Positions 5,844 through 64,000 of a stretch of DNA of 64,000 nucleotides are shown in pieces; the stretch's first letter is position 1; the number at the start of each line of letters is the position of its first letter. Location of the stretch: NCBI GenBank assembly GCA_021904315.1, contig CM038919.1, positions 4,588,001-4,652,000 on the forward strand, in the 5' to 3' direction. The position numbers and the translations under genes were made by a program. Source of the DNA: Sphagnum magellanicum (lineage: Eukaryota > Streptophyta > Sphagnopsida > Sphagnales > Sphagnaceae). A model generated the notes under the pieces. That model saw only the letters and a list, made by a program, of their open reading frames with translations, did not search any database and had not been told where the DNA came from.

Positions 5844-6157
5844 ACAAGGGATGTGTTGTGCTGTGGCCTTGCCCTTTACATTAAAAAGCATGTTAAGGCA
5901 AAAGAAGAATTATGGAAACTCGAATATTTCACCATGCAAAAATATAATCTTCAAAAACTCCTATCAAAGAAACCAAAATCCTCCAAGATATTATAACTTT
6001 AGAACTAATCTCAAGTTTGAACACAAGCCAAAATATAATCTTTCAAAAAATCCTGATATAAAAATAGACCTATTATTACCTAGGGGTCAAAATCCCTTAA
6101 GCTACTATACTCTACAATGAATTTAAACACAATATCCTTGCCTTGGTAGGCAAGGCC
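5844..6157. repeat. 290-bp dispersed repeat, copy 1
   Basis: This segment is strongly similar to 40080-40388. Both copies contain ggccttgcc near the left end (5865-5873 here) and its reverse complement ggcaaggcc at the right end (6149-6157 here), a 9-bp inverted pair. Homology starts about 20 bp before the left motif, so that pair may not mark the true ends. It lies about 0.7 kb upstream of the tubulin ATG. Probably a non-autonomous element; the family is unknown. Confidence 0.65.
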
Positions 6158-6885
6158 AAAAAAACAGATAATTTACCAACAAGGGAACAAGTAAATATTA
6201 TACTCAATCCAATGGTTTTTTTTGGGTGAATCTTCACAACTTGGTGAGAATACCTTTCAACAAGTCATCAAAATTATAAGAGGAATCCTAAAGTTTTCTA
6301 TTTCCCCCTTTCACCTTAAGTCCTCTTGGGCATGGTGGCCAACTTACTCTCCTACTTCACAAATTTCAAAAAAAAAGAAAAAAGACACTGGACCCAGTCA
6401 AGTTTTCTTTGAGAAAAAAAAGGGTCCAAATGAACTAGAAACAAAAAAGGGGGGTTATAATTGTTTTTATAAGTGTCTTATAAAAATAAAGATAAAGAAG
6501 GTGCCAAAGAAGGTGACCGACAGTCGCCAGTCTTAGTGACTAGGCCCTAGGTGAACTCGGTTTTACCCCTCCAATGGTATCTTTTTAGCGCAAACGGGAC
6601 TATTGGGTTGGGGGTAAAAGTAAGAATGGTAAAAACAGATGAGAGACACGACGACGCAGCAGCGGCTGAAGAACGCTAGTGTTCTGAAAACAAACGAACA
6701 AACGAAACACTGCCGGAATCGACGCACGAGCTTCTTCGCCGCCATCGCGTTCTTCGATCTCTCGTACTAGTACTCCTCATCGGATCTCTGCAGCGTGTTT
6801 GCGAAATCGAGGCTGATTTGTTTCGGAGTTTTTTTGGTTTCTTTTTGTTTTGTTTTGCTCTGTCGCTCTAGGAAGAAGAACAGGA
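6158..6885 (+). promoter_or_regulatory. Upstream region of the alpha-tubulin gene
   Basis: This is non-coding DNA between a dispersed repeat and the tubulin ATG. From about 6530 it becomes less AT-biased (gacgacgcagcagcgg; gcgttcttcgatctctcg), as expected for a core promoter and 5' leader. I see no convincing TATA box at a fixed distance, so the transcription start is not placed. Confidence 0.4.
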
Positions 6886-9800
6886 ATGAGAGAAATAATC
6901 TGTGTTCACGTTGGACAAGCGGGAATCCAACTCGGTAATGCATGCTGGGAGCTCTTCTGTCTAGAACATGGCATTCAGCCCGATGGCAATCTCATCACGT
7001 ACTCTTCTAACGACTCCTGCATCCCCCCATATTGTTCGCTGTTGTTTTCCTCTCTTACAAAAAAAATTCAAGACATTATCTATGTGTCTGCGACAAGTAG
7101 CCTAGTGCCAACCTATAAGTCGTTTTGCAAGCTGGGATTCATATCTATCATGCGTGACGGCGTTTCTACAGGTCTTTGGTCTAGGAACGCAGGGGACAGG
7201 AAATATAGCTGCTCATGATTTTTTATCATGTGCTGTTATTGTCGTGTTTGGAAGTGTCCCTCTCTGTCTGTCGATTCAGGATGTCTTCGTCACTGAGAAG
7301 AAGTTGCAAAAGCTTCAACCGCTCGTTACTTATTTGCCTAATCTTCTTGTGGCGGTCTTTCTCCCTTTTCCTTTGGTCGAGAAATTCCAGATTTGTTACG
7401 AGCATGTAGATGCAGTTGTTCCGTTTAGGTCTCAGTTTGTCTCACAACGAACGTAGGAAGCTGTGTGTACGATAAAAAAGCGTGATAAGACTCTAGACCG
7501 CTTCCTCCAACAAAATAGAGATCCGATCGGCGTTGACATCAACGCTGCTCACACCTCTTGAAAGTTCTTCCGGGCGGGAGGATCAAAATCTGGTTCCTGA
7601 AAATCCAGGAACGGCCCTTAAAGCTTCGAACCCGCCGATGGCCAGATGGGCGGGTGCAAGCTGTACCATGGAGAATATAATTCAGATTGTTCCTCCATGC
7701 TTTTGCTTACAAACAAAGTTCGTAAGGATGAGGATATCAAGGTGTTTCTCTTTGATGTCAGCAGGCGATTTCATCGCGTTAAGGGAACTGGCTTCTTGTC
7801 ATAGCTGGATTGTTTCTTTTAGCGTCATGGAACTTATATCTGCTGTGAGCACTTGCTCAGTTCCCCCGCGTTCTGTTTGTGTCAAGATCCAATTCTTATT
7901 CAATTTACTGAAGGGCACTCCTAAAAGGAGCTTTAGAGGCTGTTATATGTGTTTTTTCGTGGCTTGCCGTGAAGTGTGAAATGCGCCCTGGTAGTGATTG
8001 TTTTCAGGATCTGTGTGAGCGCTTGCTTGTAGAACTCCATTCTACAAACGAGCTTCCTCTACACGGAAATTGAATATTGTGATGCAACTCGGAAGAGTAG
8101 GTCACTTTTTGCTTCTTTGTGTTGGATGACAGCTTTTATGGAGATCCATGTGTTAAGTGATATAGTAGATTTGTATCATGAAGCTTCTCATAACAGAAAA
8201 TCATCAAGGTTTTCAAAGAGAACAGAAGCACCATGCCTGATTTAATTGGCATGAGCAAAGACATACATTGGCTTTCCTGCATCCCAACACAGTTTTAGGT
8301 CATCCTTTTTCTCAGTTTGGAATTTTTTTTTAATGAAATGCCTGAATTCATGGCTGCAGGGGTGAAGGAAGTGTGGAAATGGAGTCTTTCAGCACATTTT
8401 TCAGTGAGACAGGAGCTGGGAAGCATGTACCTCGGGCATTGCTTGTAGATTTGGAGCCCACTGTTATTGATGAGGTTCGAACTGGCACCTACCGTCAACT
8501 TTTCCATCCAGAGCAATTGCTTTCTGGCAAGGAGGATGCTGCTAACAACTTTGCCCGGGGGCACTACACAGGTGATGTTCTTTGTTGCACTTATGGTTAT
8601 ATGGCACAAGGCAATCTTTAGGGGCAGTTATAAATGTGTCATGATTTTGCTCAGAAGTGGATGGTCCAATCTCTTTTTGTTCTGTTCTTTTGCTGTGGTG
8701 GCCTTCTTGCCATCAACAGTTAGCTAAGAAGACAGAATTGCCATCATTTGTAGTGCTGAAGGCTGGAATTCAAAAGTCTGTCATTTTCCTGGCATTGTTG
8801 TGACTGGTCTGTCTCACCCACCTAGTAGGTGCATGAAAGGCTAACAATATCTGTTGGTGTGGTTTTGCAGTTGGAAGAGATGTTGTGGAATCCTGTCTTG
8901 ACCGGATTAGAAAACTGGCAGACAATTGCTCAGGCTTGCAAGGATTTCTGGTCTTCAATGCTGTGGGAGGTGGAACAGGTTCTGGTTTGGGTGCCCTGCT
9001 GCTCGAAAGGTTGTCAGTTGATTATGGGAAGAAGTCCAAATTAGGCTTCACTATCTATCCTTCCCCACAGGTATGTCTATTGTCTGTTATTGATGCAAGG
9101 CGAGTCTTCTGTTTCATCATATAGGCTCCAGTGTATTCTGGCAGTGAAGTAAGTGGCCAAGTGTTCCACATACTGTTTTCAGCTTGAAAATTTCTCAGCT
9201 ATGGATTTTTTTGGTATGTGTTGGCAGGTGTCAACAGCTGTGGTAGAACCTTACAATAGTGTGCTCTCGACTCACTCCCTCATTGAGCATACGGATGTTT
9301 CTGTGCTCCTAGATAATGAAGCCATCTATGATATCTGCAAGAAGTCACTTGACATTGACAGGCCAACATACACCAATCTGAATCGTCTTGTATCCCAAGT
9401 TATTTCATCCTTGACTGCATCACTGAGGTTCAGTGGTGCCCTGAATGTTGACATAACAGAGTTTCAAACAAACCTTGTTCCTTATCCAAGAATACATTTC
9501 ATGCTGTCCTCGTATGCCCCTGTTATCTCTGCTGAGAAAGCCTACCATGAGAACCTCTCTGTTGCGGAAATCACAAGCAGTGTTTTTGATCCAGCGTCCA
9601 TGATGGCCAAGTGTGACCCACGCCATGGCAAATACATGGCTTGTTGCATGATGTTTCGGGGTGATCTCACTCCTAAGGATGTCCAAGCAGCTGTAGCAAC
9701 CATTAAGAGTCGACGTGCTGTGCAATTCGTTGACTGGTAAATTGTTTACTGGTCATTCTCCAGAACATATAGAAGAGTTGTGATGACCTTCCTAGTTCCT

Positions 9801-20480: not shown

Positions 20481-20931
20481 ATAATAAAACACAACAAATT
20501 TAATGGCTAACATAATGCTTGCACTTAATGCCTAAACATAATGGTTAAACTTAAGTTAAACTTAATGGTTGAAATTTGGCTAAACTTTGGGTAAACCTAA
20601 TGGTTAAATCTAATGACTAAACATAATGACTAAACCTAATAGCTACACTTAACGGATAATTTTTGTTAGGTATGTGGGCAAATAGATATGTGAAAAAATA
20701 TAGATAGGTAAGTAGCATGTGGATGGCTAGGTGCATGGGGTAGTTGCAAGGTAGACCATCCATTTTTTGATGTCACAAGGGTACTTTCTATGGGGTTACA
20801 TGTAAATTAAGTGTTACACAACTTGGGATATGATTGAAAAATGTTGAAAGTGCTCATTTAAGCAATCTATAATACTAGTGTGAACCTAGTGCATAATGCA
20901 CCCATCGAGTAATAACTGTCACCAAAAAAAA
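20481..20931. other. AT-rich flank of the hAT remnant
   Basis: Contains short repeats of aatggttaaac/taatgactaaac (about 20500-20650) and degenerate aggtaagtag words near 20720. No gene is seen. Confidence 0.5.
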
Positions 20932-21230
20932 AACCCATCAAAAAAAAAAAAAAAAAATCAAAGGTCCAGGCAATTTAACTAACACAGAAAACAAAACCCA
21001 TCAAAAAAAAAAAAAAAAAAAAAAGGTCCAGGCAATTTAACTGACACAGAAAACAAAACCCATCAAAAAAAAAAAAAAAAAAAACAAAGGTCCGGGTAGT
21101 TTAACTGACAGAGAAAATAAAACCCATCAAAAAAAAAAAAAAAAACAAAAGTCCGGGCAGTTTAACTGACATAGAAAACAAAACCCATCAAAAAAAAAAA
21201 AAAAACAGAAAAACAAAGGTCTGGGCAGTG
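20932..21230. repeat. Poly(A)-containing minisatellite, five copies of about 61 bp
   Basis: The unit is aacccatc followed by 15-20 A residues, then aaggtccaggcaatttaact and gacacagaaaacaaa. Copies begin near 20932, 20997, 21057, 21121 and 21181. The A-tract length varies between copies; the rest is nearly identical, so the array is young. Confidence 0.85.
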
Positions 21231-38714: not shown

Positions 38715-40099
38715 TTTCATATTACAAACCTTGACAGTTGGGCCAACGACACTTGGCTTCACACTTGAACGAATAATTTTTTTGTGAAAAAGTCATGCCT
38801 TTTAATGCCTTGAAGAGATTTTTTGGAAAGTATTATGCCTTCAAAGAGCCTTGAAGACAATCCCAATTGGACCAATGGTGTTGGCACAAGGATCCACTAG
38901 TTTAGGATGAAGAAGGTCAGACATGTGGACTATATGTGATCATTCCCATAAACAAGTTTATAAGCTTTAAGATCCTACTAAGCATGCCAAGTAGACATTT
39001 TGATTCAAATGCACCAATGTAGGTTCACATGTGATTCAAAAAACTTATCTTTAGAAACAAGCTAGAATCATATAATATCTCATCAACACCTTCACTTTGA
39101 CACAAACAAGTACACAGTAGGAAAACTCAGAGAATTGAAAATTTCAAAGGTGGTTAGTAAGGTTGAGTCTGACATGCAGTTCCATCGATGTGAAGTGTGA
39201 ACTACTACTTTTGGACGTCTCTTTCTTTTTCACTTTTCTGATGTCAAGTGAATGGCGACTTCCATAACATGATGGAACAACTTGTATCCAGTGTTTTTTC
39301 TCAAATTTGTGATGAGGGTGGGTTGGCTATGATCCATCCATGAGTCTACGACTCAGCCAAATTTGGCTATAGGTCAGAGATGAAGTAGAAAAGTTTACTT
39401 GAATCATGCACTATTTTGGTGACATGCTATGTACAACCTATTGTATAAATATGGTGCCTTCAAGTTTTTCTCTTCATAATGTGGTGAAAGTGGACCATTT
39501 GTTTTTGAAAAAAAAGGCCTTTGTACTTGCTGCAAGGGCCTTTTTCTTGTTGCCCGGTTGTGAAATTTTTCCAAAATAAAATAAAATCACTGCTTGTATT
39601 GTGTAAAAGTAAATAAATTCCCACATTGTATTTTGAGTGCCTAAGTTAAAATCTGGGAAATTTCAAATTTTTCTCAAAAAAAAATTCAAAAAATCAATGG
39701 AAAACTGGATCATCAAATTTTTATGTTTTTCTTCCCTGCATTGAAAATACAGGTTTAATTAATTTTGAATTACCAATTTCAGACATGACAAATTTTTTAA
39801 AAAAAATACCAACCTGTATTTTCTTCAATATTCTGACATTGCATCAGTAATGTTGTGAGCATCCCAAGAGGGATTTACCAGTAAATGGTGACAGGTTTCT
39901 GGAACCTGTAAACGATGCCACCAAACCAAAATCTGAATATACTCAATTGAGATGTGGTGGATTTTTTAAAAAATTTAATTGTTTTGTGAAACTTGATGAA
40001 AATTTCCCCAAAAGACATGAATAATGAGACAGAAATATATTTATTTTTCGCACTTGTGAGAAATTTCTCACATGTAAAACAAGGGGTGTGTCACGCTGT
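38715..40099. other. AT-rich DNA with a second palindromic-core repeat copy
   Basis: About 39290-39580 is the second copy of the dispersed repeat (agccaaatttggctatagg near 39358, then tataaatatggtg). Elsewhere no gene is seen. Confidence 0.5.
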
Positions 40100-40388
40100 G
40101 GCCTTGCCATTTACATTAAAAAGCATCTCAAGGCAAAGGAAGAATTATGGAAACTCAAATATTTTACCATGCAAAAATATAATCTTCAAAAAATCCTCTG
40201 AAAGAAACCAAAATCCTGCAAGACGTTATAACTCTATAACTAATCTCAAGTTTCAACACAAGCCAAAATATCATCTTGAAAAATTCCTCGTATCAAAATG
40301 GACCTATTACCTAGGGGCCAAAATCCCTTAAGCTAATATACTCTATAATGAATCTAAACACAAAATCCTTGCCTTGGTAGGCAAGGCC
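40100..40388. repeat. 290-bp dispersed repeat, copy 2
   Basis: Matches 5865-6157 along its whole length with scattered substitutions and small indels. Ends are ggccttgcc (40100-40108) and ggcaaggcc (40380-40388). Homology extends about 20 bp further left. Confidence 0.7.
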
Positions 40389-49672: not shown

Positions 49673-51202
49673 TATTATGCATGTGAAATCACATATGAAA
49701 CCATGGGGAAACATGTGATGTGTACACTTTAAGAAATTTTTTATTTAATTTTTTTTTATTAATATATAAGTGGGTGTTTGTGACCTTTGAAAAGATTTTC
49801 ATTTGATAAAAATAAATTGTTGTATGAGTGTAAAATTTCATAGAATAGAATTGTGAAGATAATTGAAATTTTAGTTTTGAAATGTTTTGGTATAATTTAT
49901 GAAAAGTCCATTGTAGGAAAATGGTGTGGCATATTAGTTACACATAGACAGTAGAAAGGTGAAAAAATATTTATGTAAACAAAAACATAAATTTCCATAA
50001 CCATGTAATAAACATACATAATTTCGATTTTAAACCCACTTGTGATTTACGTCTGTTAATTTTGTAACTAGGACTCAAGTCTATGTTCTTTGTGTTATAG
50101 AAATTAATTTTATTATTGAAAATTTGGTGGGAAAGAATAAATTATTTATTTTGTTTTAGAACATGAAATGCAAGGTGATTTATTTATCTTTGAATCATGG
50201 ATAGAAATGATAACATGGGTGGAGGAAGAAATTATACTTGTGGCAATGGAAATTATGAAGGCAAGCTAAATCAAATTTTGAGCACAATTGAACACATAAA
50301 GCAACATCATAAAGACCATAAATATGAGTCATTCCATTTGACCCAAAATTTGCTTTTAGATCTTACATGTAATCCTAGGCACAAACTAAAGTTGGATTTA
50401 TGGGAATTTGAAAAGTTTTGCAAAGAAAAGCTATAGTTAAGAAAGGAAAAGAAAATGACATGTGTTAAGCCATATGAAATAATATAAATAAAAAGTCTAT
50501 AAAGAATAATAGGTGTTCATGAATAAGTTCTGTTTGTTAGACCTAGTTGAAACCTTGAGACTTTTTAATTTCTGATGTAAAAAATGTTATAAGTTTTTGA
50601 AAGGAAATTATATGTTTTATTTTTAGGTTTAATTTTTTAAATAAAACACTAATGTCAATGTTAGAAAAAGCTTTTGATTCCCCTAATACATAGTTTCTAG
50701 AAAATAGGCCACAAACCCCATCACTAACATTAAAAATTATTGGGCCAAATTCACATGTTGAAAGATTTCTTGAGAGACCTAATGAAAAGCCTAGAATTGT
50801 ACGTGAACCAAGTGTGTTAATGTCACAACTACATAAATGATGAAAAAAACATGGACCTCAACTTAACCTTGAATTTGCGAAGCAACACCAAAAGGTGATC
50901 ACATTATAATAACATTTATTCATCTAGCTTAAGGAGAAAGATACAACTTAAGATTATGCCAGAACCAATAATTTACATGTCATGTGAAATGGAGGTGTTA
51001 TTAATACTCATGATCTTATAAATGTTGTATTTTAATCCAAACATTTAAAGAGGATAATTGCAAGGTTGGAGATGTCTGGTCCTTTTAGAGAATTGCACCA
51101 AGAAAATAGAAAAAAATTTATTACAATTGCAATTCAGGCCATTAGGGGTTTTCTAATTCATGAAAAGAGACCGTGAAACTAAGTGATTATTGGTTAAAAG
51201 TA
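49673..51202. other. AT-rich DNA with one unassigned small frame
   Basis: A 79-residue plus-strand frame at 50197-50436 is unusually polar (MDRNDNMGGGRNYTCGNGNY, IEHIKQHHKDHKYESFHLTQ) and could be a remnant of a gag-like or host gene, but I do not recognise it. The A-rich sequence that follows reads in no long frame. Confidence 0.35.
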
Positions 51203-52558
51203 TGTCATGCCCATATGCATGGCTTCATACATGACGACCGGTTATAAGCATGCCAATCATGCATTTTAAGGTTAATGTACGTTCTTAGGGTTAATGTACA
51301 TTTTTAGGTTACTGTACATTATTAGGTATTTTAGGGTTATGGCTTGTTTAAGGTTTCAGCTTGTTGGCAGCTGTATAAAAGGCCAAGCTCTTCCCTTCTC
51401 TTGTTAGTTTTTCTAGAATTCCTTTGTCAGGGAGAGTTTCTTCCATAGTCAAACTGGATTTTCAGATGTTCACAACGGCTATTGCATGGCCATCATTTAC
51501 ATACACTACATTTTCTTTCCTTCTTTTCAATTTAATTGTAGAAAAAAAACTCCTCTTTATCATTTAATGTTGAAAGCATCAAATTTTTCTTAGCTTTGAA
51601 TTTTTTACATTTCTTTTGCTTGCTAGTTTCTATAATCTTGAGTTGCTGCTACTTCTTTTTCTTTTTCTACTCTTGTACTACAACTACAACAGGAACAACA
51701 ACAACCATAACTAGCAACAACGTAAACAAGGGAAAAAGGACACCGAAAACAAGCTACAAGCTTTGAAGTTTTGAACTTCGGAGCTTTGGAAAAAGGAAGG
51801 AACGAGTAGTTCCAAAGCTTGTTTTACTGTCAGCTTTAGGTATTGGGAGCACGCACACACACACAAAAAAGGTTGGATTATAGTACAAGATCTCCACTAG
51901 GTGATGTAACCCCACATACATTTCCTTTCCTTGTACATGGGTTTTGAGGTTAGCATTTGGGCTGTACACTCTTGTGTGTTTTTGAGCTTGCAATCATGTA
52001 CTGAGTAGACCGTGTGGTAGCTCTGGAAGAAGAAAAAGAAGAAGAAAATAATAATAATTAAAAAAAACATCAAGTAAAAGAAAAATAAAATAAAATTCAT
52101 TTATGCACACCATCGCCGTAAAGCTCGCAGACGCAGATCGCATCACAATGCTGTCATTGGCGTAGTTCATTACAATCGTAGTCTGTTTCGTTCCACTATT
52201 CTATTTCGTTGCAATTCATTCCATTACGCCATTCCGTCCAATGTCCATCCCCATTTTGTCCAACGTTCGTCCTTGTTCCATTCAACGTTTGTTGTCGTTC
52301 TGTCCAACATCCGTTCCCATTTCGTTTGACGTTCGTTCTCATTTCGTTCGACATCCACTCCCATTTTCGTTCCATCTGACGTCCATCACCGGTCGTCAGT
52401 CTAGTTCCATTCGTCCAACCCCTTCTATCCACCAACATCCATCCATAGATGTCCATTCACTGATGTCTATCCATCGCCATTCATTCGTGTCGACGGACTA
52501 TATTCTTTAAATTGTTCGTTTTGTTAGAACTTTGTAGTTAGTGCTCTTCATTGCTACA
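51203..52558 (+). repeat. Candidate 5' LTR of the methyltransferase-bearing gypsy element
   Basis: Begins TGTCATGCCC and ends ...TTGCTACA, the TG...CA pattern of LTRs. It contains a TATA-like tgtataaaaggcc at 51373-51385. The downstream half holds pyrimidine-rich repeats (51840-52100, 52190-52500). It immediately precedes the gag region. No matching 3' copy is visible in the window, so the limits are inferred and a primer-binding site is not identified. Confidence 0.35.
52190..52500. repeat. Degenerate 20-bp repeats (cattccgtccaa / gttcgt)
   Basis: Repeated words of the form cattt.gtccaacgttcgtc, ttccattcaacgtttgttg and tttcgttcgacatccactcc recur with a period of about 20 bp. This is low-complexity DNA inside the candidate LTR; the frames on both strands are artefacts of it. 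Confidence 0.6.
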
Positions 52559-52814
52559 AAATTTTGGGGCATGGGACAACACCATGTCCTTGGATGATGA
52601 GAGCATTACCATTTAGCCAGAGCCAAGGTATCAACTACAAAATAACACACAATCATTTGAGTTGATTTCTTTGAGCTCATAATCTTCACAATGGTACCAT
52701 CAATCATCTATAGCACCATCGTCACCCAGTACAACTCCTACTAAGAATTCAGGTTTAGGTTACACTACATCAACAATACATTAAAGTCCATTTGGAGGGG
52801 TTAATCAATGGGGT

Positions 52815-55015
52815 ATGCCTCTTGCTGCACCAGCTTTCACACCATCACTATATATTCCATTGCAAGCTGCTACTTCTACACCCATATACACCATGGAAGT
52901 AAGTAATTCTTCTAGGAAAATTGAAAAGTTTAGCGGAAGGCCAAGTACCATTTCTTTGAGGGAGTTCAAAACAACTTTTTCAACTATGGTTTGTGAAGTA
53001 GAGCTCAAGTATGGTGTAAATTACACCGAGGCATTCGCATTCAAACAACTAGTTCGTTATGTGCACTATGAGGCATTGGATGTTTACGAACAACATTTTC
53101 CGAAAATTTTAGGCGTCACCCAAATCCCCAATCCAACTTATGCCACCACCATCACCACCGCCTCTCAAGCTGGATAGTAAGTTGACATTACACATAATGG
53201 GATTGTGCCCAATAATCCAAATCTGATACCTACTTTAGTAAACCTTTCTCTTCAACAACTCATTGCTGCTACCGCAAACATTCCTTCCACCATTGATGCA
53301 CCAACTTTTACTGATCAAGTGGGGGTATTCTTTCGAGTTCTTGAGCTAGAATTTCTGGTTAAAAGTTTTGAAAAAGTTTTATAGCTTGGCAGAAAGATGA
53401 AACCTTCAAGATGCTCTATAGGAGGTTTCTCAAGCTTAAAAAGGATACTCAAAGCATCACAAATTTAGAAGCTGCCCATCGGTATTTTCGTTCTTTAGAA
53501 GATACTCCAACACTCCATGCACAGGTTTTGCAACGAGTTTTTACAAAATTTGGAAACTTGTACACTTCGTTAGATGTGTATAACATTCTTAAAAAGTTGG
53601 AACTAGCTCATGCACATTATGAGGCTAGTACTATGAAGCCTCCATCACATTCAAGGCCTTAGCTTGCACCAACTACACTAACCAGATCATCACATTCTTC
53701 TTCAAAGGCTAAAACGGTGCACTCAACTACACCTATCCTACCTTCTTACAACTATGGTGGCAATCCTGCCCAGAAAGTTACTAAGTGCAACATTCCTTTT
53801 GAGGATCTTTTTTGTGATTATTGTGGGAAAGAAGGACATTAGGAAGCTATTTATTTTGCTAAGTTCTCGAAATGGAAACAACTCCAATTACCACGGCAAA
53901 ATCTACCAACATCTTTTGTTGCCCCTCAACCAAAAACCAAGGCACCTCAACTTTCCACTCATGCTTTCCCCACCAAAGGTAATTCTAATAAAAATGTTAA
54001 GAAAGAGCATAATGTTGATAAGAGGGAGGTGCTTCAAGCCCATGTTGCTCAAATTCAAACTCTACAAAATGAACTTGAATCATTTAAGGCCCAACTTGAT
54101 AATTTTAAAGGCAAGTCTTTCCAACTAGTTAGTCATGCCCAACCTATACAGGGTTTAAGATCATGGGAGGGACCTCCTAGGTCGTTCTATGGCCTCTCAC
54201 ATAATGCCATGGTTGGGGAGTATGTTCTTTCTAATGCACACAATTTTAGTTTCACACCAAAATTTGCCACTTCTTTTTGCCCTTCGTACTTTGCGACACA
54301 AGAGGCTAGTGTGGCACCCAAAGTTTCTACCACTAGACAGGTAATGCAAACTAATGGACTTGCATCTGGTTTAAGTCCTATTACTAAGGCTAAAGGGGCT
54401 CGAGCAATCATGCCACAATCTTTTCTTCCTCTTAACACGGAAAAACACATTTTGTTAGCGAGCGGGGAGGAAACTATTACACCACAAGCTGCTAGGGCAT
54501 CAAATTCTTGTGTCCAAAGAATACCTATACATTAGGAAAACACATAATTTTCCACTAATCAACTTATGGAGTGTTAATTTCAAATGCGTGAAGTGGCACA
54601 AAAGCTTACACCATTATTTAATTTTCAAGATTTGAAATTAAGCACCAGGGACATAATTGCACTATTAAAGGATACCCTAAACATTACATCAAGTCCTCTA
54701 CCAATCTCTGATCCACATGCTATAAGGGTCCTATCCAACACCTTGGAGAGACATTCGATTGGTTCACGTGTTATAGATGGGGTTCATAATTTGGTCATTA
54801 GTTCTAGCATGGCTAAACTAGTGGGCTCTTCTATTTTTATTCTACATTCACATATTAGAAGGGAATTAAGAATGCCTCACTTGTGGATTTGTTACATAGC
54901 AAAGGCGTTATGGATAGGCATTCTCTCCACAAAGTCTTTGACTCATTTTCCAAAGGTGGTGCCTAGTGAAAAAACTTCCATTGCCACTAGAGTTGCCATT
55001 GTCAACAAATACTGA
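52815..55015 (+). pseudogene. Gag of the methyltransferase-bearing gypsy element
   Basis: Capsid/nucleocapsid precursor, decayed. The N-terminal part (52815-53174) holds FSGRPSTISLREFKTTFSTM, and the middle (53411-53659) reads FLKLKKDTQSITNLEAAHRY. Around 53740-53860 two zinc knuckles are seen, both damaged: the first has lost an early Cys, and the second (CDYCGKEGH) is followed by TAG and a Tyr where the last Cys should be. A likely coiled coil follows (VLQAHVAQIQTLQNELESFK, near 54030-54090). A further conserved-looking part runs 54584-55015 (LSTRDIIALLKDTL). Stops include TAG at 53175, 53382, 53660, 53840 and 54533. One frame change lies between 53384 and 53411; from there to 55015 the frame is constant. 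Confidence 0.75.
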
Positions 55016-55640
55016 GTCAATAATCCAAGTGGGAGGACATACACTCAGAGTGATACTTCTTGATACAGGTGCCCAACTAGTGATCCTTGGAATTCAATTC
55101 GCCAACAAGATGGGCATGCTAAACTCCAAACTACAAAAATCTATGTGGCAAATTCGCATCGCTAATGGGAGTGGAAAGGAAGTACTTGGGGAGAGCTCAG
55201 ATTTTATTACATTTAACTTCAATGAAGGTATAGATCAGGAGCTTTACCTATTGGTCAAATGTTTACTCACACATGCCACCAGTTACGATGTGTTCATTAG
55301 GCAAGAGGCTTGTTTCCACCAGGTTTCATAATTGACAATTCATTCGAACATGCGTACTACCAAATGGATTGAGAGACTAATGGCCACCACCTAGGATACA
55401 TACCCCTTGATTTACATGGGAACCATAGTCCTATGCTTCACCATTGTATGCTCAAGGAAACACACATTATTTCCTACATCCAACAAGTTAGCCACGAATG
55501 GATAGAAGGAGATGAAAAGGAGATAGCTTATGCCCAAGCTACTGATAGCTTAAGGGTGGTTACTACTAACATTCAACACGGACCAGAGGTTTTACAAAGG
55601 TTCAAAGTAGCCCACGAGCCCTTGGTCAAAGCTTAATCTA
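54966..55640 (+). pseudogene. Retroelement aspartic protease region
   Basis: Would cleave the Gag-Pol polyprotein. The active-site Asp is in VILLDTGAQLVILG (DTG codons 55062-55070). A downstream block SYDVFIRQEA resembles the flap and C-terminal region of gypsy proteases. The frame differs from gag by +1 and overlaps it by about 50 nt, consistent with gag-pol frameshifting in the ancestor. A one-base loss near 55310 shifts the frame for the remainder (55433-55636), which leads towards the methyltransferase. Confidence 0.75.
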
Positions 55641-55674
55641 GTTTTGAGAACATGGAGAACCATGGTGAACCGAT

Positions 55675-55869
55675 CATAGTTATGACATTCTTGGTGCGAG
55701 AATGTTATGGAAGCCTAAAGAAGCAAGAATTTTAAAGAATTTTAAAAAAATTTATAGATCAACCAGTGTAATTTGGTAAACATTCGCAGGTAAAGAATGT
55801 TATGACAAGGTGCTAAATGAAGAATTTTAAAGAATTTTAATGTGCAAAATGAAGAATGTCATAACTATG
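55675..55869. mobile_element. MITE with 18-bp perfect TIRs and 8-bp TSD, nested in pol
   Basis: The element starts CATAGTTATGACATTCTT and ends with its exact reverse complement. Both sides carry the 8-bp duplication GAACCGAT (55667-55674 and 55870-55877), pointing to a hAT-type transposase. Inside, gaagaattttaaagaatttt-like words occur twice. Removing the 195 bp plus one duplication (203 nt) makes the frame before it and the methyltransferase frame after it coincide. Confidence 0.95.
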
Positions 55870-55920
55870 GAACCGATTAAACCAGTACTTCGTTAACTAA
55901 TCACCTAGACATTACCTAAA

Positions 55921-56868
55921 GAAGGGATTACATTACTAAAGCTTTTTGGTGGTATTGGTACAGGTGTCGAAACCCTACTATAGTTAGGGATGGTGGTTCA
56001 AAGGTATTTCTACATAGACATTGATCCTATTGCAAGGCAAGTGGCAACATCGAGAATGATGGAGCTCACAGCCAAATTTCCACAACAGTTTACAACCACC
56101 ACATGGAAGGCCAGTTTCACTTTCTTGCCTTTTGACATACAACTAATTCGAAAGCAGCATATGGAATTACTTGGCCTCGTGGACCTCATCATTTCAGGTT
56201 GGGGGTGTCAAGGATTTTCAACGGTTAAATTTGGAGAAGGCTTGAATGACATAAGATCCGATCTTTTCATGGACATGGTATGATTGATCACGTGGGTTCA
56301 ATCTATTTCTCCTATGCTTGGTTATGTAATTGAGAATACCCCTTCTTAGCTTGACCAGGGGGAGAAAGTCTAAGAGCACTACACACTGGTCAAGCATTAC
56401 CTTGGAGAGCCACTCCTACTCGATGTGGCACAATGCGGTTCCTATGCGCACTGACTACGTAACTTGTGGACCAACCTTGCACCATTCTTAGTTTTACAAT
56501 TGATTTTGATATACACCATCAGAGACCCCAACCTATAGGTTTATCACATATTAGATGATTAGAGCTCTTGCCAACAAGTTACAAGGCAAGAAAAACCTCC
56601 TTGGTTTCCTACGAATATAATAGGAAAACCAAGAGGTGTTTGGCCCACCTTTGGCTCCTTCCCAGGAGCACACACCTTCCAAGGAGATGGACCAAGCTTG
56701 GTGTATCGTCATGTTTCAACCACTTGGGATGAACCGAGCCTAGAAGAAAGAAAAAAGGCTATGGGGTTCCAAATTCGCACTACTAGTTACACCAAGGTGA
56801 CTAGGTCGGAGCGTAACATTCTATTGGGGAGAAGCATGGACATGAACTCCCTTAATGGTTGTTGGTAA
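55921..56868 (+). pseudogene. DNA (cytosine-5) methyltransferase domain, DNMT3-like, inside pol
   Basis: Would transfer a methyl group from S-adenosylmethionine to cytosine C5. One frame spans about 315 codons. Motif I (SAM binding) is LKLFGGIGTG at 55938. Motif II is YFYIDIDPIA. Motif IV with the catalytic Cys is VDLIISGWGCQGFS near 56183-56220. Motif V is GLNDIRSDLF, and motif VI is GYVIENTP. Motif VIII-like is SYAH, stop, LRNLWTNLA, and motif IX/X is AMGFQ...ERNILLGRSMDMNSL near 56760-56850. Motifs are in canonical order, unlike rearranged plant DRM enzymes; LLGRS and AH-x-x-R-x-x-W-x-N-L fit DNMT3 best. The Pro of the usual PCQ/PCN is Gly here. Stops at 55981, 56281, 56347, 56371, 56452, 56536 and 56560 make this copy inactive. 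It sits between protease and RT of the same polyprotein. Confidence 0.88.
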
Positions 56869-57098
56869 CTTGTGTATTCTTTCAAATGTACAGAACACCA
56901 GCATTGTAATTAGCTTATAGTTTTGGCGATGTGCCTACATGGCACCCTAACCAAGTACACTTGCCTATGTTCAACACTTTACACTACACTCTTAGTGTTA
57001 GGGGGAAGGAGGTACCATGTAATTTGATTCAAGTTGTTTTTGATACACTTTGAGTTACATCAACTTCTGGAGAAACAATTATAACCTTCTACGAATTT

Positions 57099-58200
57099 GT
57101 GCAGTTGGATAGTGGAGAACCTAATACACCAGGTTCTTTAAACACACTTTCCAACTCCATTCCATGTGTTTCCAACTACCCTTTCATTATGGGGAACCAG
57201 CTCACCAAGAAGGAGAGAGACCAAGTCACAGACTTGCTAATTAAGTACAAAAATGTTCACATTGTCAATGAAAAACTTAGGTAGGTGTAAGACCATGCAG
57301 TTTTCTATAGACCTTACAGATGAAACACCCATCTATTGAAGGAGGCATAGGTTGAGTAAACATGAGTGGGAACTGGTAAATGAAAGATGTAAAAAGCTCC
57401 ATGAAACTAGTTTCATTCAACCATCAAGTTTTGATTTCATAGCCATTATAATAATGCCAGCAAATAAAGATTCAACTGGATTATGGATTGAGAAAAGGAT
57501 GTGCAGGGATTATAAGCCTTTGAACTCAGTTACACCTTAGGATAGGTACCCCATGCCATCCCTGAGGAATTGTTTGATAGGATTGGAAATTCAAACATCT
57601 TCATAATTGTGGATCTAAGGTAAGGCTTCCACCATATTTTGCTTGTTACAAAGGATCGCAAGAAAACAACATTCCATGGAAACAACAAGTTATGGGAATG
57701 GCTTGTGATGCCTTTTAGATTGAAGAATGCACCTGTCTTCTTTCAATGAGTCATGGACCAAGTTCTCGAAGGAGCAAATTTCATGAAGTGCTTACATAGA
57801 TGACTTCTGAATGCATAGCAAGGGATTCCTACAACACTTGGTTCATCTTGAAAAGTTATTCAAAAGGTTCCATGAAGTTAATATGAAGATCCATCTTTAA
57901 AAATGTGAGTTTGCTATCACCTCAGTAATCTACCTTGGACATAGAATTTTGCTAAATGGTATTATGGCTCATTGGGCCAAAGTAATAGCCATTTTGGAGA
58001 TGCCCAATCCTACTGATGTTCACACTTTGAGGAGCTTCATCAAACTATGTAATTATTAAAGGATTTATGTCCAAGACTTTAGTACTATTACTCATCCTCT
58101 CTATGCATTGTCAAAGAAGGATGTTGCTTGGACATAGAGTGAAGAGGCTCAAGAAGCTTTCAACACACTCAAGGAAAAGCTTTCAAAGTTCCCCATTTTG
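57099..58200 (+). pseudogene. Reverse transcriptase of the gypsy element
   Basis: RNA-dependent DNA polymerase, decayed. In order the frames show ERDQVTDLLIKYKNV, LTDETPIY then RRHRLSKHEWELV, MCRDYKPLNSVTP, IFIIVDLR, LWEWLVMPFRLKNAPVFFQ and the catalytic YIDD (57793-57804), then VNMKIHL, YLGHRIL and PTDVHTLRSF. Frame changes occur near 57285, 57560 and 57790; stops include TAG at 57538, TGA at 57337 and 57747, and TAG at 58135. About 80 codons of linker separate it from the methyltransferase. Confidence 0.85.
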
Positions 58201-58600
58201 AGAAGACTTGATTTCAGCAACGTCTTCATTCTACACACTTACTGGAGTGCTCTTGGTATTGGTGTTATTCTTAGCCAACTTGATGAAAAAGGCAAGGAAT
58301 GTGTTATCACCTATGGATCCCGAAACAACAACAAGCCTAAAAGTAACTATTCTTCATACGAAAGGCAGTGTCTTACTATTGTATGGGCTGTCATACATTT
58401 CAAGCCCTATTTTTATGACACCAAGTTCACTTTGTATATCGACCACTAGCGTATAAAGTGGTTGATGACCAACGATAAACTTACTAGTAAGTTAGTTCAT
58501 TGGGCGCTTATACTTTAGGAGTATGAGTTCAAGGTTATTCACCGACCTGGTATTATAGATCAGAACGCGGATACCATGTCGTAGAGACCTTTCACTACCT
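58201..58600 (+). pseudogene. RNase H domain of the gypsy element
   Basis: Degrades the RNA strand of the RNA-DNA hybrid during reverse transcription. The frame reads FILHTYWSALGIGVIL, where the first catalytic Asp is replaced by Tyr (codon 58240-58242). SYERQCLTIVWAV supplies the Glu region and LYIDH the second Asp, followed by TAG (58447) and IKWLM. The connection EYEFKVIHRPG is typical of gypsy elements. It is in one frame with the integrase downstream. Confidence 0.8.
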
Positions 58601-58699
58601 CTAAATATTTCTCAGAAACCAAGCAAGACTTTGATTAGATTCTAGTTATACATGTATCCTATGCATCTAATTATCTTGCACTACTGCAATGTAACCTGG

Positions 58700-59960
58700 T
58701 AGAACATCCCATTGTGGATATATGGGAGGATTTGGACATTCTAAGGTTTCTTTAGCATGGGGAATACCCTCCCCAAGTTACATCAAATCAACGAGATCGC
58801 ATACAATAATGGTCCAAACGCTACTCATGGAAGGACAATCACTTCGTCCGATGTTTAACACAAGGCGACAGAATGGTTCCTTCACCACATGAATGGCCTG
58901 GTCTTATTCAGAAGGTACATTTGGAGCTTGGACACTTTGGAGTTAAACATACTTATAGCTTCTTCATTCTTCATTATCATTGGAAAGGTATGTATGTTCA
59001 AGTTCGAGACATCATTACTAGGTGTGAACAATGTGATAGAGTGAGAACTTCCTTCTCCTTTCAATAGTTCATGCTTTCTCCACTCCCTATTCAGGGCATG
59101 TTTTATTGCTAGTCATGTGATTTAGTTGGAGAATTACCACAAACCTCCAAAGGTAATGTTTACATCATGATTATGATTGAGCATTTTTCAAATTGGGTCG
59201 AGCTTGTTGCGCTGCCGGATAAGTCATCATATAGCACCAACTACGCTTTCTTACAACAGGACCTAAGTAGGTTTAGGGCTTGTGCTAAGTGCCTTACTAA
59301 TTAAGGATCAGAATTCAAAAGAGAATTCCAAGACCTACTTGATCATGCTCTCATTGACCATCACCGGACTTCAAGGGATCATCCCCAAGTTGATGGCCTT
59401 GTAGAGAGGATAGTTTAGACATGCAAGAAGGGACTTTAGAATATTTGTCTCATTGGGAACAAAGAAGATTGGGACCTGGCCCTACCTTACATCGCCATGG
59501 GTTACAGGATGTCCAAACACCCCTCTTTGTCTCATTTCTCTCCTTACTTTTTACTTTTTTGGAAACATCCCATTCCACCCTCTTCCATTGCTGCTCAAAT
59601 GGACCAGGTTGTGGACTTGGACTCCCTAACCACTTAAATTAGGGTCATTACAGAAAAGGCTACTCTATTCAAGAGGGTTATGCCCATGGCCATGGAGAAC
59701 TTGTCCATTGCACAACATCAAGACACCTTACGGTATGCACACACACGAGGTGGCAATTACAAACCTAAGGTGAGACAATTTGATGTTGGTGACTTTGTGT
59801 ATCTTTAGCGACAACGCAATGATACTCTTGACACTTCTTCCAGTCGCATTATCTTGAGGATTAAGGCGATCAAGCCTTCAGGTGTGTTAGAGTTGCAAGG
59901 AGCTAATGGACGCACAATTCAGGATCACTCCCAAAACTATGCACCCTAACACCTACTAAA
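58700..59960 (+). pseudogene. Integrase of the gypsy element
   Basis: Inserts the cDNA into host chromatin. An N-terminal HHCC zinc-binding region is visible (HLELGHFGVKHT ... HYHWKGMY ... CEQCDR, 58920-59040). In the catalytic core the first Asp is in SCDLVGELP (59119), the second Asp has become Asn (LTN at 59299) and is followed by TAA, and the Glu is in VDGLVERIV (59404). A C-terminal block VRQFDVGDFVYL follows. The frame is unbroken for over 1 kb but holds stops at 58753, 58807, 59065, 59110, 59302, 59416, 59437, 59635, 59806 and 59947. Confidence 0.85.
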
Positions 59961-59988
59961 CTTGGATCCTACCATCATCACGTCGACT

Positions 59989-60165
59989 TAGATTCCTCCA
60001 CTTGAATATCCATGTTAGGTATGTCAGAGGATAGATGATGTTAATTATATGTTATTTTGTGATAATTGTAATGGTGGATATCATGTATTCTATCTCAAGC
60101 CGGAGCTCACTAAAGTTCCTGCCGACATTTGGTACTATTCATCATGTTCTCCTGTAGCACCTTGA
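59989..60165 (+). pseudogene. C-terminal PHD finger of the gypsy polyprotein
   Basis: PHD fingers bind histone H3 tails, often reading the K4 methylation state. In frame with integrase the sequence reads EYPC, TAG (60016), VCQRIDDVNYMLFCDNCNGG, YHVFYLKPEL, then VPADIWYYSSCSP. This matches the C4-H-C3 spacing with aromatic Trp before the last pair. Two zinc ligands are now Tyr (after YHVF and after IW). A chromodomain is what many gypsy elements carry here instead. The ligand losses mean this copy could not fold. Confidence 0.8.
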
Positions 60166-60398
60166 TTTCTACTCAAACCATGCCACGCTTTTCCTGGCTC
60201 AGGTCTGGGGGGGGATACATGAAAATTTCATCTCAACCTCCTCTTGTGCATTGTATATATATGTGTGCGTGCATCTCTTTTTGGTTGATTAGTTTCTACC
60301 TTTGGCTAATTTTAGTCTTTTTGTTCAGCAGAGTTTACTATGGATTTACACCCTTACAACATCGAACATCACATCACTACACGTCGCGACAAGTGTTG

Positions 60399-61219
60399 TG
60401 TCGCAACCCTACTTTGGCCAAGTGTGGGGGGTGAAGCCCAACACTTGGAAAAGTTGGAGGTTGGGAGTCTTCCGGGACTCCCGAATGTTCAAAGCTCGAC
60501 AGCAAGGGGCAAAACACCTCGCATTGGGGTGTTCTTGGTGTCATTGGAAAGGTCTTGAAACGTAAATATCGAAAATGCCCTCGCATTGGCAATTAGGACA
60601 TCTGCAGCCCAAGTTATGGGCAAAAGAAGGGCCGGGAGTCAAATTGGCAGTTTGAGTCCCGACCACTAAAAGTCGGGAATCGACCTCTTCCCGACGTCTG
60701 ATTTGAGCGTGCGACATGGCGTGGAAAGATCTCGACGAGGGCTACAACTTTGGTTCAGACCTCGTCACGATCCAACTCTGCAGTCGGGAGTTATGGCGGT
60801 TCAAAGTTCCGGGAGTCCCGTCGGGACAATTTCGGGACTCCATTTCGGGAGTCCCGGGAATTTGTGCCATTTGGATGTAGCCTCCGCGACCAGCCGCAGA
60901 AAATACTATATGGGGGAAGGTGGTGGCTTCCCCTGAGTCCGGGCCGTGGTGAATCTTGTGTGTCCAAATGCTCGTGGCAAGTCCCAACACCAAAGGGTGT
61001 CCCGAAGGCTAAACTAACCCGATTTGGGTGGTTTTTTGGATGCAGATTCACATGAGCTAAGTTAGTCCCTCGTCCTAGTCTAATCCCGGGGCTCCCAACT
61101 CGACCCTCTACCCCTTTCTAAAGTTGGAAGCCGGGAGCGTGCTACCAAGTTCAACTTTCTGCAACTTGATTTTGTGAAACCCTCAAGTGGGTTTCACCCC
61201 GTGACTTGGGAGCGCGTCA
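60399..61219. repeat. LTR-like unit A
   Basis: Begins TGTCGCAACCC and ends GCGTCA directly against unit B. It is relatively GC-rich with many cgggagtcccg and cgggactc words. It shares long collinear similarity with unit B (gggagtcaaattg, gtgcgacat, ggaaagatct, gccatttggatgt, gaaggtggtggcttccc), clearly diverged. Confidence 0.6.
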
Positions 61220-62126
61220 TGTTGCAACCCTAGCTTTGGGCTCGCAAACAAGGCAAAGGGGTTACAAGGTGGCAAGCTAAGAAGAAGCCCAGGAGTCACA
61301 TCACATACTCCCAGGAGTGTAAGAAAGCGTGAGGGAGTGTGAGGGACTAAACCCTCACACTCCCAAGGCAACTCCCACTTTGGGAGATGAAGTCCCAGTG
61401 AACTCCTGAAATTTCAAAGAGCAATTTCAAGGGTCAAAACTCAATGGTTTGTGGTGTTCTTTATATCATTGGAAAGTTGTTAGAACGTAGATGTCTAAAA
61501 TGGGATCACATTACTCATTTGGACATTTGAAACATAAGTTATGACCAAAAGAAAGGTCGGGAGTCAAATTGCCAATTTGACTCTTGACCAGAAAAAGTCG
61601 GAAATCGACCCGATTTACTTGGCTGGAGAGGGCGTGCGACATACCGTTGGAAAGATCTTGACGAAAACTACAACTTTGCTTGAAACTTCATCTCGATCCG
61701 ATGTCTACTCGCAAAGTTATGGGGCTCCAAAGTCACGGGAGTCCTAACTAACCCAATTTCGGGAGTCCCGAAAGAGAAAAGCCATTTGGATGTGGGCTCC
61801 ATGGCCAGCCACAAAGTATACTATAAGGATGAAGGTGGTGGCTTCCCTTAAGTTCGAGCTGTGATGAGTTTAGTGTGTCCGTGTTGCCCGTGGCTCGTCC
61901 TAGCACCAAAGGTGCTCCAACTATGCACTAACCACTTTGTGTGAGTTGTGTGCAGGCTCATGCGAATGAGTGAAGCTTGTCAACTCTTCTTAGTCCCATC
62001 CTAGAGCTTCAACACGCCCCTTTACCCCTCAAAGTGTTTTGAACTAGGGAGTGTGCCCCGACTCCTTTTCCGCTGTCTTCCACTTGGACTCGCATTTGAG
62101 TCCTTTAAGGAGTTGGGAATGTGTCA
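61220..62126. repeat. LTR-like unit B, head to tail with A
   Basis: Begins TGTTGCAACCC and ends GTGTCA. It lies directly upstream of a second gypsy gag, so it is probably that element's 5' LTR. It is 907 bp against 821 bp for unit A; the extra length lies near its start. A primer-binding site is not evident after its end. Confidence 0.5.
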
Positions 62127-62199: not shown

Positions 62200-64000
62200 A
62201 TGGTTATTCCAGCTTTTAGGGGAAGTAAGGGTGAAGATCTTGAAGTATTTTTAAAGGAATATAAAAAAATTTGTATTGGTATTGGGCTTAAAACAATTGT
62301 AGAATGGTTTGATTTCTTTCCTGAATTCTTTGAAGGTATAACATCACATTGGTTTGAACGATAGATAGAAGCATTGAAAGGATCATGGAATGACATAATT
62401 GAAGCCTTAGTGAAAAAATTTCTATGAAAAATGTCTACCAAAACTTAATATTTGAACTGAATCAATTAAAGCAGGGGGCTTTAGAGTAAGTGAAAGAATA
62501 TAAGGAGAAAACAATGACATTGCAAAGTAAACTCCGAAGGTGTTTTAAACATGATGCCATGAAAGAATTGATCTAATTTTTGTTGGAATTAATGCATTAG
62601 TGCTAGAGCATTTCACCATTGGTTTATTATCAGAGTTACAACAAGAAATGAGATATGAACAAATAGAAACATTTGATGAAGCGATGGAGGTGGCCAAAAA
62701 GAAAAAAAAAACATGAAAGAAGTTCCACAACTAACTATACAATCCATGGCAAAAACAGTTTAATTCTCTACTAAACTAAAGTTGTGAAAGCATCTAGAAG
62801 TGAATTCTCACATGGAGTCAGTTATGGAATAGATGATAAATCAAATGAACCAATTAAACTTCCATTTACTACAACCAAGGATTAGTAAAAGTTGAAACAT
62901 GGCAAAGGACCTATAAACAATTCAATAATATAAATGTCGAGAAATGGGACATTATTCAAGAGAATGTCCAAACTTGCTAGCCTAGCCTACTAGAGAAAAC
63001 GCGCATTCTTCTACTTGAAGCTTTTTTAGAAAAAGCAAGGGCAAAATTCAAGTACATTTAATTGAACTAATGAGTCAAAGGTGAAAAAATGTTTTGACGG
63101 GTTTAAAGAAAAGCCTCAAAATTCTTAAGGATGTGGTTAATGTCATGGCCCAAACAAACAATCGTTAGAGGACACTACTCATCTTGACACAAGCGTTAAC
63201 CGGTTCAAAGAAATGGTGAAGGCACCAAAAAAGAAAAAAAAAATTGAAAACAAAGGTTTGGATTCCAAGACTTTCTAATTTCCAAAGATTTTGGTCTTTA
63301 TCTAATGGTGAAGGATGTGAGATCATTGAAGGCAAACATCACCATTGGATAATTGGTGGCAATGATGTCATTAGTTTGAAGGGAATTGAAGAAAGGGTTA
63401 TTAACACCTAAAGTCCCAAAGGTATCCACATCTTTGAATGCCATAGGAGTTGAGCATGAATGTGATCCAATCATTAATGTGCAATGTAATGGATTATTGT
63501 TATGCAAAGTGTTGGTGGATGGAGGGGAAGGAATTAATGTGATGACAATTCCTGCAATCAAGTAATTAGGGTTGATAATTGATAGACCAACCTCAATAAC
63601 CCTAAAAATGGCTAACAAACGAATTATTAGGCTAGAAGGAGTAATTAACAGTGTTATAATCACTATAATGAAAATTTCCACCATTGTGGATTTCCATGTG
63701 GTATTAGAGGAAGATGGGGCTTACCTAATGATATTAGGTAGGCCTTGGTTAATAAAATCACATGCGAGGAACTATCGGGGCAAAGGATACATGACCATTA
63801 GAGTTCATTCTAATCAATAGAAAGTTCCATTTGTAAATTTTATGAAGAGCTGCGAAGGAATGAATGATTATGATGATGAATAAAAAAAAACCAAAGCTCT
63901 AGTTTTGAAGGGATTTACATAGATGATTTTAGTGAAGAAAATAAAGTTATACATTTTTGAAATAATCCCCAAGGTTGGAGCTTTGTCTTAGGCAGATCAA
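62200..64000 (+). pseudogene. Gag-protease of a second, different gypsy element (partial)
   Basis: Starts at ATG 62200 with VIPAFRGSKGEDLEVFLKEY, then FFPEFFEGITSHWFE, a retrotransposon Gag pattern. A zinc knuckle reads CREMGHYSREC near 62937-62970 with its first Cys replaced by Tyr. The protease active site is VLVDGGEGINVMTIP near 63508-63555, and YLMILGRPWL near 63720-63755 is the conserved C-terminal block. Stops (first TAG at 62362) and frame changes are frequent. RT would lie beyond the window edge. The sequence is unrelated to the gag of the upstream element. Confidence 0.75.

Follow-up and report, generated by a model that had tools for sequence, protein, structure and literature searches.

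Retrotransposons that carry a DNMT3 methyltransferase together with DIRS-like repeats are known. In KnitGypsy-Dnmt3, from the charophyte alga Klebsormidium nitens, DNMT3 lies in the Pol polyprotein of a long terminal repeat (LTR) Gypsy element with DIRS-like repeats and is described as being under purifying selection (de Mendoza et al., 2018, PMC5890265). A 2025 paper places DNMT3 within retrotransposons of streptophytes and dinoflagellates and does not mention a PHD finger in its relevant passages, and a 2019 opinion article describes transposon-borne methylases as absent from land plants (PMC6338049). Here we describe a retroelement in a 64,000-nucleotide stretch of the moss Sphagnum magellanicum (assembly GCA_021904315.1, contig CM038919.1, positions 4,588,001 to 4,652,000; hereafter the window, to which coordinates refer). 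It extends retrotransposon-borne DNMT3 to a land plant, where the copies are numerous; some of these have long open frames, and omega (dN/dS) is low. Taking our explanation as a whole, we consider it likely that the window holds an old, dead copy of a multi-copy, integrase-bearing Ty3/gypsy-like lineage, of the type A-coding-B, where A and B are terminal blocks. What is new here is the land-plant host, the PHD finger, the self-priming ends and the apparent cutting, by the integrase, of a palindrome inside the repeats.

By its description, KnitGypsy-Dnmt3 shares with the moss element a DNMT3-type methyltransferase (MTase) inside a gypsy Pol, DIRS-like A-coding-B-A-B repeats and purifying selection on the MTase; the moss element is set apart by its land-plant host, C-terminal PHD finger, target duplications and self-priming ends. 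The main text of PMC5890265 mentions neither PHD nor chromodomain nor zinc finger, and KnitGypsy may carry a PHD finger shown only in figures or supplements. SymbioDIRS-Dnmt3, as the same paper describes it, also has a DNMT3-type MTase and a reverse transcriptase (RT) in Pol and A-coding-B-A-B repeats, but it has a tyrosine recombinase, whereas the moss element has a DDE integrase and 4-bp duplications. Indeed, a tyrosine recombinase and no target duplication are expected of DIRS elements, and the moss element departs from them on both counts.

The moss element is like Ty3/gypsy elements in its Pol order (protease, RT, RNase H, integrase), its DDE integrase, its TG...CA ends and its 4-bp duplication, which falls within the 4-6 bp expected of them, but it lacks the identical whole LTRs that Ty3/gypsy elements have at both ends: its left end is A only and its right end B or B-GC-A-B. 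Like the chromoviruses, Ty3/gypsy elements with a chromodomain after the integrase, it has a histone-reading module at the integrase C-terminus; unlike them, it has a PHD finger in place of the chromodomain, an extra MTase and split repeats. Tf1/sushi and Tcn1-like elements are self-priming, in Tf1 by the 5' end of the RNA. The moss element resembles them in having a primer site that would pair with the predicted 5' end of the RNA, and differs in repeat layout, MTase and PHD finger. Neither PHD nor methyltransferase appears in the main text of one survey of LTR elements in plants. A screen for extra domains in angiosperm elements makes no mention of PHD, and in the text of the literature matches listed we found no report of a retrotransposon with both an MTase and a PHD finger. 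An element with its own DNA-methylation writer and its own histone reader makes it testable whether transposons exploit silencing marks for themselves, and the combination of split repeats with a DDE integrase questions the usual tie of such repeats to tyrosine recombinases.

Domain order and decay of the window element

The element occupies 51203-60391 on the + strand, as delimited by blastn of a relative's end blocks and by reading of its ends and duplication. Its polyprotein, on the same strand, runs in the order gag, protease, DNMT3-type C5-methyltransferase, RT, RNase H, DDE integrase and C-terminal PHD finger. The original prediction of a gypsy-type element with a DNMT3-like MTase between protease and RT and a PHD finger after the integrase is thus upheld by Pfam and structure-sequence matches and by the same order in relatives. 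The span it gave, 55921..60165, is too short for the element.

For the Pfam scans of window pieces, stops were read as X and no base was altered. The MTase (55912-56865, a single frame of 318 codons with 7 stops) matches DNA_methylase PF00145 at 2e-5 and 24.6 bits (cut-off 22), with the alignment confined to positions 37-99 of the 324-position profile, and shows the motifs LFGGIGTG (I), GWGCQGFS (IV) and VIEN (VI). The frameshifted RT (57100-58050) matches RVT_1 in its C-terminal third (8.1e-9), and 16 copies have RT pieces of 72-87% identity in the corresponding position. RNase H follows at 58138-58590 (RT_RNaseH_2 1.2e-28, RT_RNaseH 1e-20), and then the integrase (58810-59990), made up of H2C2 (58810-59064, Integrase_H2C2 6.3e-13), the DDE core (59065-59700, rve 1.9e-9, with the D-D-E residues seen in relatives) and a C-terminal part up to 59990. 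The PHD finger (60013-60147), in the integrase's frame, is the last Pol domain; it matches PF00628 at 5e-8 (residues 6-50 of 59998-60165) and the KMT2D PHD finger at 2e-10. Upstream of the MTase, the aspartic protease (54942-55331) matches gag-asp_proteas at 7e-5, below the cut-off, and at 1.1e-7, over the cut-off, in a relative. The gag pieces (52785-53177 and 53372-53662) gave no credible Pfam match in the window, and 74-85% identical pieces stand at the same place in other copies. A degenerate zinc-knuckle-like stretch was read by eye near 53803-53860 on the + strand.

Stops per 100 codons number 2.2 in the MTase, 2.1-3.3 in the three RT pieces, 2.0 in RNase H, 2.6 in integrase core plus tail and 1.8 in the PHD finger; the H2C2 piece has zero, and the counts for gag and protease are uninformative because those pieces were picked as open frames. 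The similar density in MTase, RT, RNase H, integrase and PHD finger fits joint decay. The CpG observed/expected ratio of the element is 0.34, which is nothing special to it, since a large neighbouring stretch is equally depleted. A short foldback-like insertion, revealed by self-blastn, lies at 55675-55869 between the protease and the MTase; its inverted ends measure 18 bp, and it contains a 21-bp direct repeat.

Relatives in the Sphagnum assembly

Relatives were sought in the window's own assembly (438,994,042 bases, 31 contigs), as the original prediction had proposed, and at least 124 PF00145 matches were found, the window's own copy not among them. We fetched 20 regions, picked mainly for long open frames, and also read the 30 top-scoring 3.3-kb loci; the two sets overlap. 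By tblastn of window pieces, 16 of the 20 regions carry protease, MTase, RT, RNase H, integrase and PHD finger in order on one strand, so that copies with the predicted domain order, some with long open frames, do exist in the same genome, and the refutation set out with the original prediction, a lack of such copies, fails. The MTases of these 16 copies (family 1) are 78-81% identical to that of the window. The first gag piece is matched in all 16 (short in one) and the second in 15, and one copy has its PHD piece shifted by about 0.8 kb. A second family, represented by L035, has an MTase 36% and an integrase 53% identical to the window's; its C-terminal PHD finger was found by Pfam (1.2e-8), and the window's PHD piece gave no match there. 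The other three regions (L036, L037, L054), without RT, are host DRM genes with rearranged motifs, as read by eye. Relatives of the element MTase are present in 28 of the 30 top-scoring loci, and 24 have RT downstream on the same strand; two of the loci, L021 and L024, form a third and more distant MTase group, 30% identical to the window's and 42-47% to family 2.

In one copy a single frame, 2379 codons long, runs from gag to PHD finger, with MTase and RT included. Scanned in seven pieces, it gave MTase at 1.5e-9, RT at 6e-30, integrase core at 3.1e-12 and PHD finger at 5.9e-12; neither gag piece had a Pfam match over the cut-off. These seven pieces contain rve and no tyrosine recombinase domain. 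In both families rve is matched, and the integrase residues D, D and E, with 34 residues between the last two, were measured in three copies, the scan patterns missing the rest, family 2 included. One copy of each family was free of chromodomain matches and had the PHD finger instead.

Could the domain order be an accident? An ordinary gypsy element struck after insertion by unrelated MTase and PHD fragments would look much like the window copy taken alone, which is degenerate and frameshifted. That explanation would have to account for the same order in 16 of 20 regions and in a second family whose MTase has diverged to 36% identity, and for the continuous open frame through MTase, RT and PHD finger; we give it practically no credence. 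IMG/VR scans with three window pieces returned no confirmed relative.

Split repeats and target duplications

Block A (313 bp) forms the left end of the elements and block B (172 bp) stands directly after the polypurine tract. The repeats are split as in DIRS elements, giving either A-coding-B or A-coding-B-GC-A-B, and the copies begin TGTC and end GACA. In the window, block A (51203-51537, + strand) begins TGTC and is 73% identical to a relative's block A (blastn, E 1.8e-52); the polypurine-tract-like GGTCTGGGGGGGG (60202-60214, + strand), the same in seven relatives, lies directly 5' of block B (60215-60391, + strand), which ends GACA and is 80% identical to a relative's block B (E 1.2e-38). 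Blastn found no ordinary LTR pair for the window copy, as the split repeats explain.

Among the 16 family-1 copies, eight end in B-A-B (with A1 seen in seven of them), and seven have B1 without a same-direction A2. Of these seven, L050 has no A in the stretch examined, and in L049 an inverted block A (8898-9173, oriented) directly follows block B, perhaps a neighbouring insertion. A ninth candidate for B-A-B is L042, whose sequence runs B-A and is then cut off by the end of the stretch. The second family also has the A-coding-B-A-B arrangement. The B-A junction reads GACA-GC-TGTC in five of the eight copies, differs by one base in L039, L052 and L053, and is exact in the copy of the second family; this commonest form is the palindrome GACAGCTGTC. 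A1 and A2 agree at 300/311 to 309/312 bases (some A1 being partial) and B1 and B2 at 164/172 to 178/178, which points to insertions of mixed, partly recent age.

Exact 4-bp target duplications flank all five copies in which both ends are available: ATAT, GGTT, CAGC and GCAC, and TTTC in the second family. The window copy retains a decayed one, AGTA (51199-51202) against AGTG (60392-60395), with 3 of 4 bases matching. These duplications bear on whether the element is an ordinary LTR element, with B-GC-A as its LTR, the usual integration, and MTase and PHD finger as passengers. A polypurine tract directly before B and a primer site directly after A are just what standard reverse transcription would need to make a B-GC-A repeat, and we too predict the copied repeat as B-GC-A from their positions. 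However, in 5/5 two-ended copies the duplication abuts the start of A rather than B, and it is B that closes the right end; none of the five duplications flanks B...A ends, and the low omega reported below speaks against passengers. We therefore consider an ordinary LTR element very unlikely.

In 4/4 family-1 copies tested, TCTAGAAAAACT, which stands directly after A, is reverse-complementary over 12-13 nt to sequence lying 31-32 nt past the point where the TATA box of A begins. The primer site of the window copy is decayed, although TATAAAAGG (51374-51382) and AGTTTTTCTAGA (51406-51417) survive in its block A. Scanning the window for Rfam families and tRNAs gave no matches.

Allowing up to 2 mismatches, a genome-wide count gave 36 junctions of the A|coding kind and 92 of the B|A kind, against 0 for reversed control patterns. 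Of the 36, 25 are followed downstream by an MTase match and 19 by a B|A junction at a distance of 7.5-12 kb. This share, about half, agrees with the idea that A-coding-B-GC-A-B is the sole insertion product, made by DIRS-like copying, with A-coding-B copies arising afterwards through B1/B2 recombination. SymbioDIRS-Dnmt3 and, by figure legend, KnitGypsy-Dnmt3 are also printed in the full split-repeat form (PMC5890265). An A-coding-B copy with an uninterrupted frame looks young, which tells only weakly against a sole product, as recombination could be fast; we hold this account to be a serious contender, somewhat short of an even chance. On contig 4, two B-A junctions (3308679 and 3309167) lie 488 bp apart, as if a copy ended in three repeat units.

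The methyltransferase

Searched against solved structures, the window MTase matched 32 distinct sequences at E up to 10, of which 29 are DNMT3A/B/C. The best match, to DNMT3A at 3.5e-5, aligns query residues 5-190 and 279-310. Of the remaining three, one is a cytosine-specific methyltransferase (0.097) and two (4onj, 4onq), named only 'DNA methyltransferase', are presumably plant DRM. A profile of 11 element MTases matched DNMT3A at 3.2e-15, 4onj at 7.8e-8, HhaI at 3.8e-6 and named DRM2 chains at 2.5e-5. The motifs I, IV, VI and VIII follow in linear order in L046, L045, L044 and L035. Motif IV reads GWECQG in family 1 and GWPCQG in the second family, and the catalytic cysteine is kept. Based on the best match and the linear motif order, we class the element MTase as DNMT3-type. 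A host DRM as the source of capture was considered and rejected, as DRM motifs are rearranged and those of the element MTases are not.

Tblastn against phages returned 144 records, every one below 60% identity. The four records fetched are phage MTases, and the two compared with solved structures are both closest to DNMT3. In blastp of the window MTase, four phage enzymes scored 54-61 bits against 50 for a DNMT3C segment and 42 for a DNMT3A segment; the phage enzymes thus outscore the mammalian segments, and 'DNMT3-type' is compatible with a prokaryote-like origin. A tree of 17 rows groups the element MTases in a single clade (100/99), separate from the host DRMs; it does not resolve where that clade sits among DNMT3, DRM and phage enzymes, and long branches meet there. 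No host DNMT3 gene was identified in this analysis. Plant DNMT3 host genes are described as carrying a C-terminal DUF3444 (PMC6453930); the moss element differs in that DUF3444 was unmatched in its scanned pieces.

The PHD finger

All eight C4HC3 zinc ligands are invariant in an alignment of 11 chosen copies from both families. By sequence, the closest fingers are those of KMT2D, CHD4 and WSTF (the best three), followed by KMT2C, ATXR5 and KDM5 fingers, and solved relatives include the KDM5, ATXR5, BAZ2 and AIRE fingers. The last four we take to be readers of histone H3 with unmodified K4, and one might guess from sequence that the element's finger shares this preference; the preferred mark is no firmer than a guess because the best three matches are KMT2D, CHD4 and WSTF. 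The original prediction had likened the finger to the PHD-like ADD domain of animal DNMT3, a comparison that does not hold: it is a separate C4HC3 PHD finger at the far C-terminus of Pol. Animal DNMT3A/B nevertheless resemble the element in having the nearest solved MTase domain and in uniting an H3-type finger with an MTase in the same protein, whereas in the moss element no ADD or PWWP was found, and RT and integrase separate MTase from PHD finger. A paper on a Culex gypsy element that surfaced for PHD was set aside, as the PHD belongs to a neighbouring gene there.

Selection on methyltransferase and PHD finger

Omega was estimated by the Nei-Gojobori method among 16 copies, omitting pairs with dS of 0.01 or less, so that 115-120 of 120 pairs count. 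The median is 0.25 for the MTase and 0.12 for the PHD finger (55 codons), values biased downward by the choice of copies, mostly for long open frames. On the same footing, the medians are 0.32 and 0.19 for RT pieces, 0.30 for RNase H, 0.22 for H2C2, 0.27 for the integrase core, 0.15 for the integrase tail, 0.40 for gag and 0.59 for the protease. Omega of the MTase and PHD finger is low, like that of RT and integrase.

Proposed replication cycle

We propose that transcription would start in A near AGTTTTTCTAGA and that the 5' end of the RNA would fold back onto the primer site, priming itself. After copying, the integrase would cut the palindrome GACAGCTGTC in a circle, or internal sites of linear DNA. 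A staggered cut of GACA-GC-TGTC would give, on both sides, the recessed CA ends that integrase uses, so one- and two-repeat circles could yield both insertion types, A-coding-B and A-coding-B-GC-A-B. The MTase is probably packaged with RT and would methylate the element's own cDNA or a new insertion. The PHD finger, at the position of the chromovirus chromodomain, probably tethers the integrase to histone H3 tails. Put together, the scheme is a DIRS-like circular cycle with a DDE integrase cutting GACAGCTGTC in one- and two-repeat circles, a DNMT3-type writer of its own and a PHD reader of its own (perhaps of the unmodified-H3K4 type) that chooses chromatin, which would rebuild the DNMT3 writer-reader pairing outside animals. 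As a complete scheme it is tentative, and we think it possible rather than probable.

The target of the MTase could also be a different one. Antiviral-defence and RNA-methylation roles have been proposed for transposon MTases (PMC6338049, PMC5890265), and the enzyme might act on host DNA or RNA, or protect against host nucleases or other elements, instead of acting on its own cDNA. Its place between protease and RT argues otherwise, as it would be made inside the reverse-transcribing particle; a target other than the element's own cDNA seems to us conceivable but doubtful.

Several further points weigh against the cycle and the roles that we propose, in addition to the downward bias on omega. 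Motif IV of family 1, GWECQG, is without the usual proline. The MTase piece (313 codons) has a stop in 7/16 copies, compared with 4/16 for the integrase core, 6/16 for the integrase tail, 0/16 and 1/16 for the RT pieces and 1/16 for the PHD finger. The A-coding-B copies could stem from B1/B2 recombination after insertion, and no MTase match lies upstream of 63 of the 92 B|A junctions, which is unexplained. Finally, the MTase domain of the K. nitens element gave no detected methylation in yeast, a result that its authors call inconclusive (PMC5890265).

Other features of the window

Just right of the element, 60477-61115 and 61402-62029 form a direct duplication about 920 bp apart with 70% identity and no link seen to the end blocks. 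The start of another retrotransposon gag may lie at 62200-62430 (Retrotrans_gag 0.0097, weak and below the cut-off). Alpha-tubulin-like exons at 6817-9740 on the + strand (Tubulin 9.6e-9, Tubulin_C 7.9e-33) are probably a host gene or pseudogene. A 206-bp direct repeat, 89% identical, links 5843-6048 and 40078-40283, 34 kb apart, and a short tandem array at 20924-21212 holds four overlapping 102-nt copies at a spacing of 61-64 bp, the later three 81-88% like the first.

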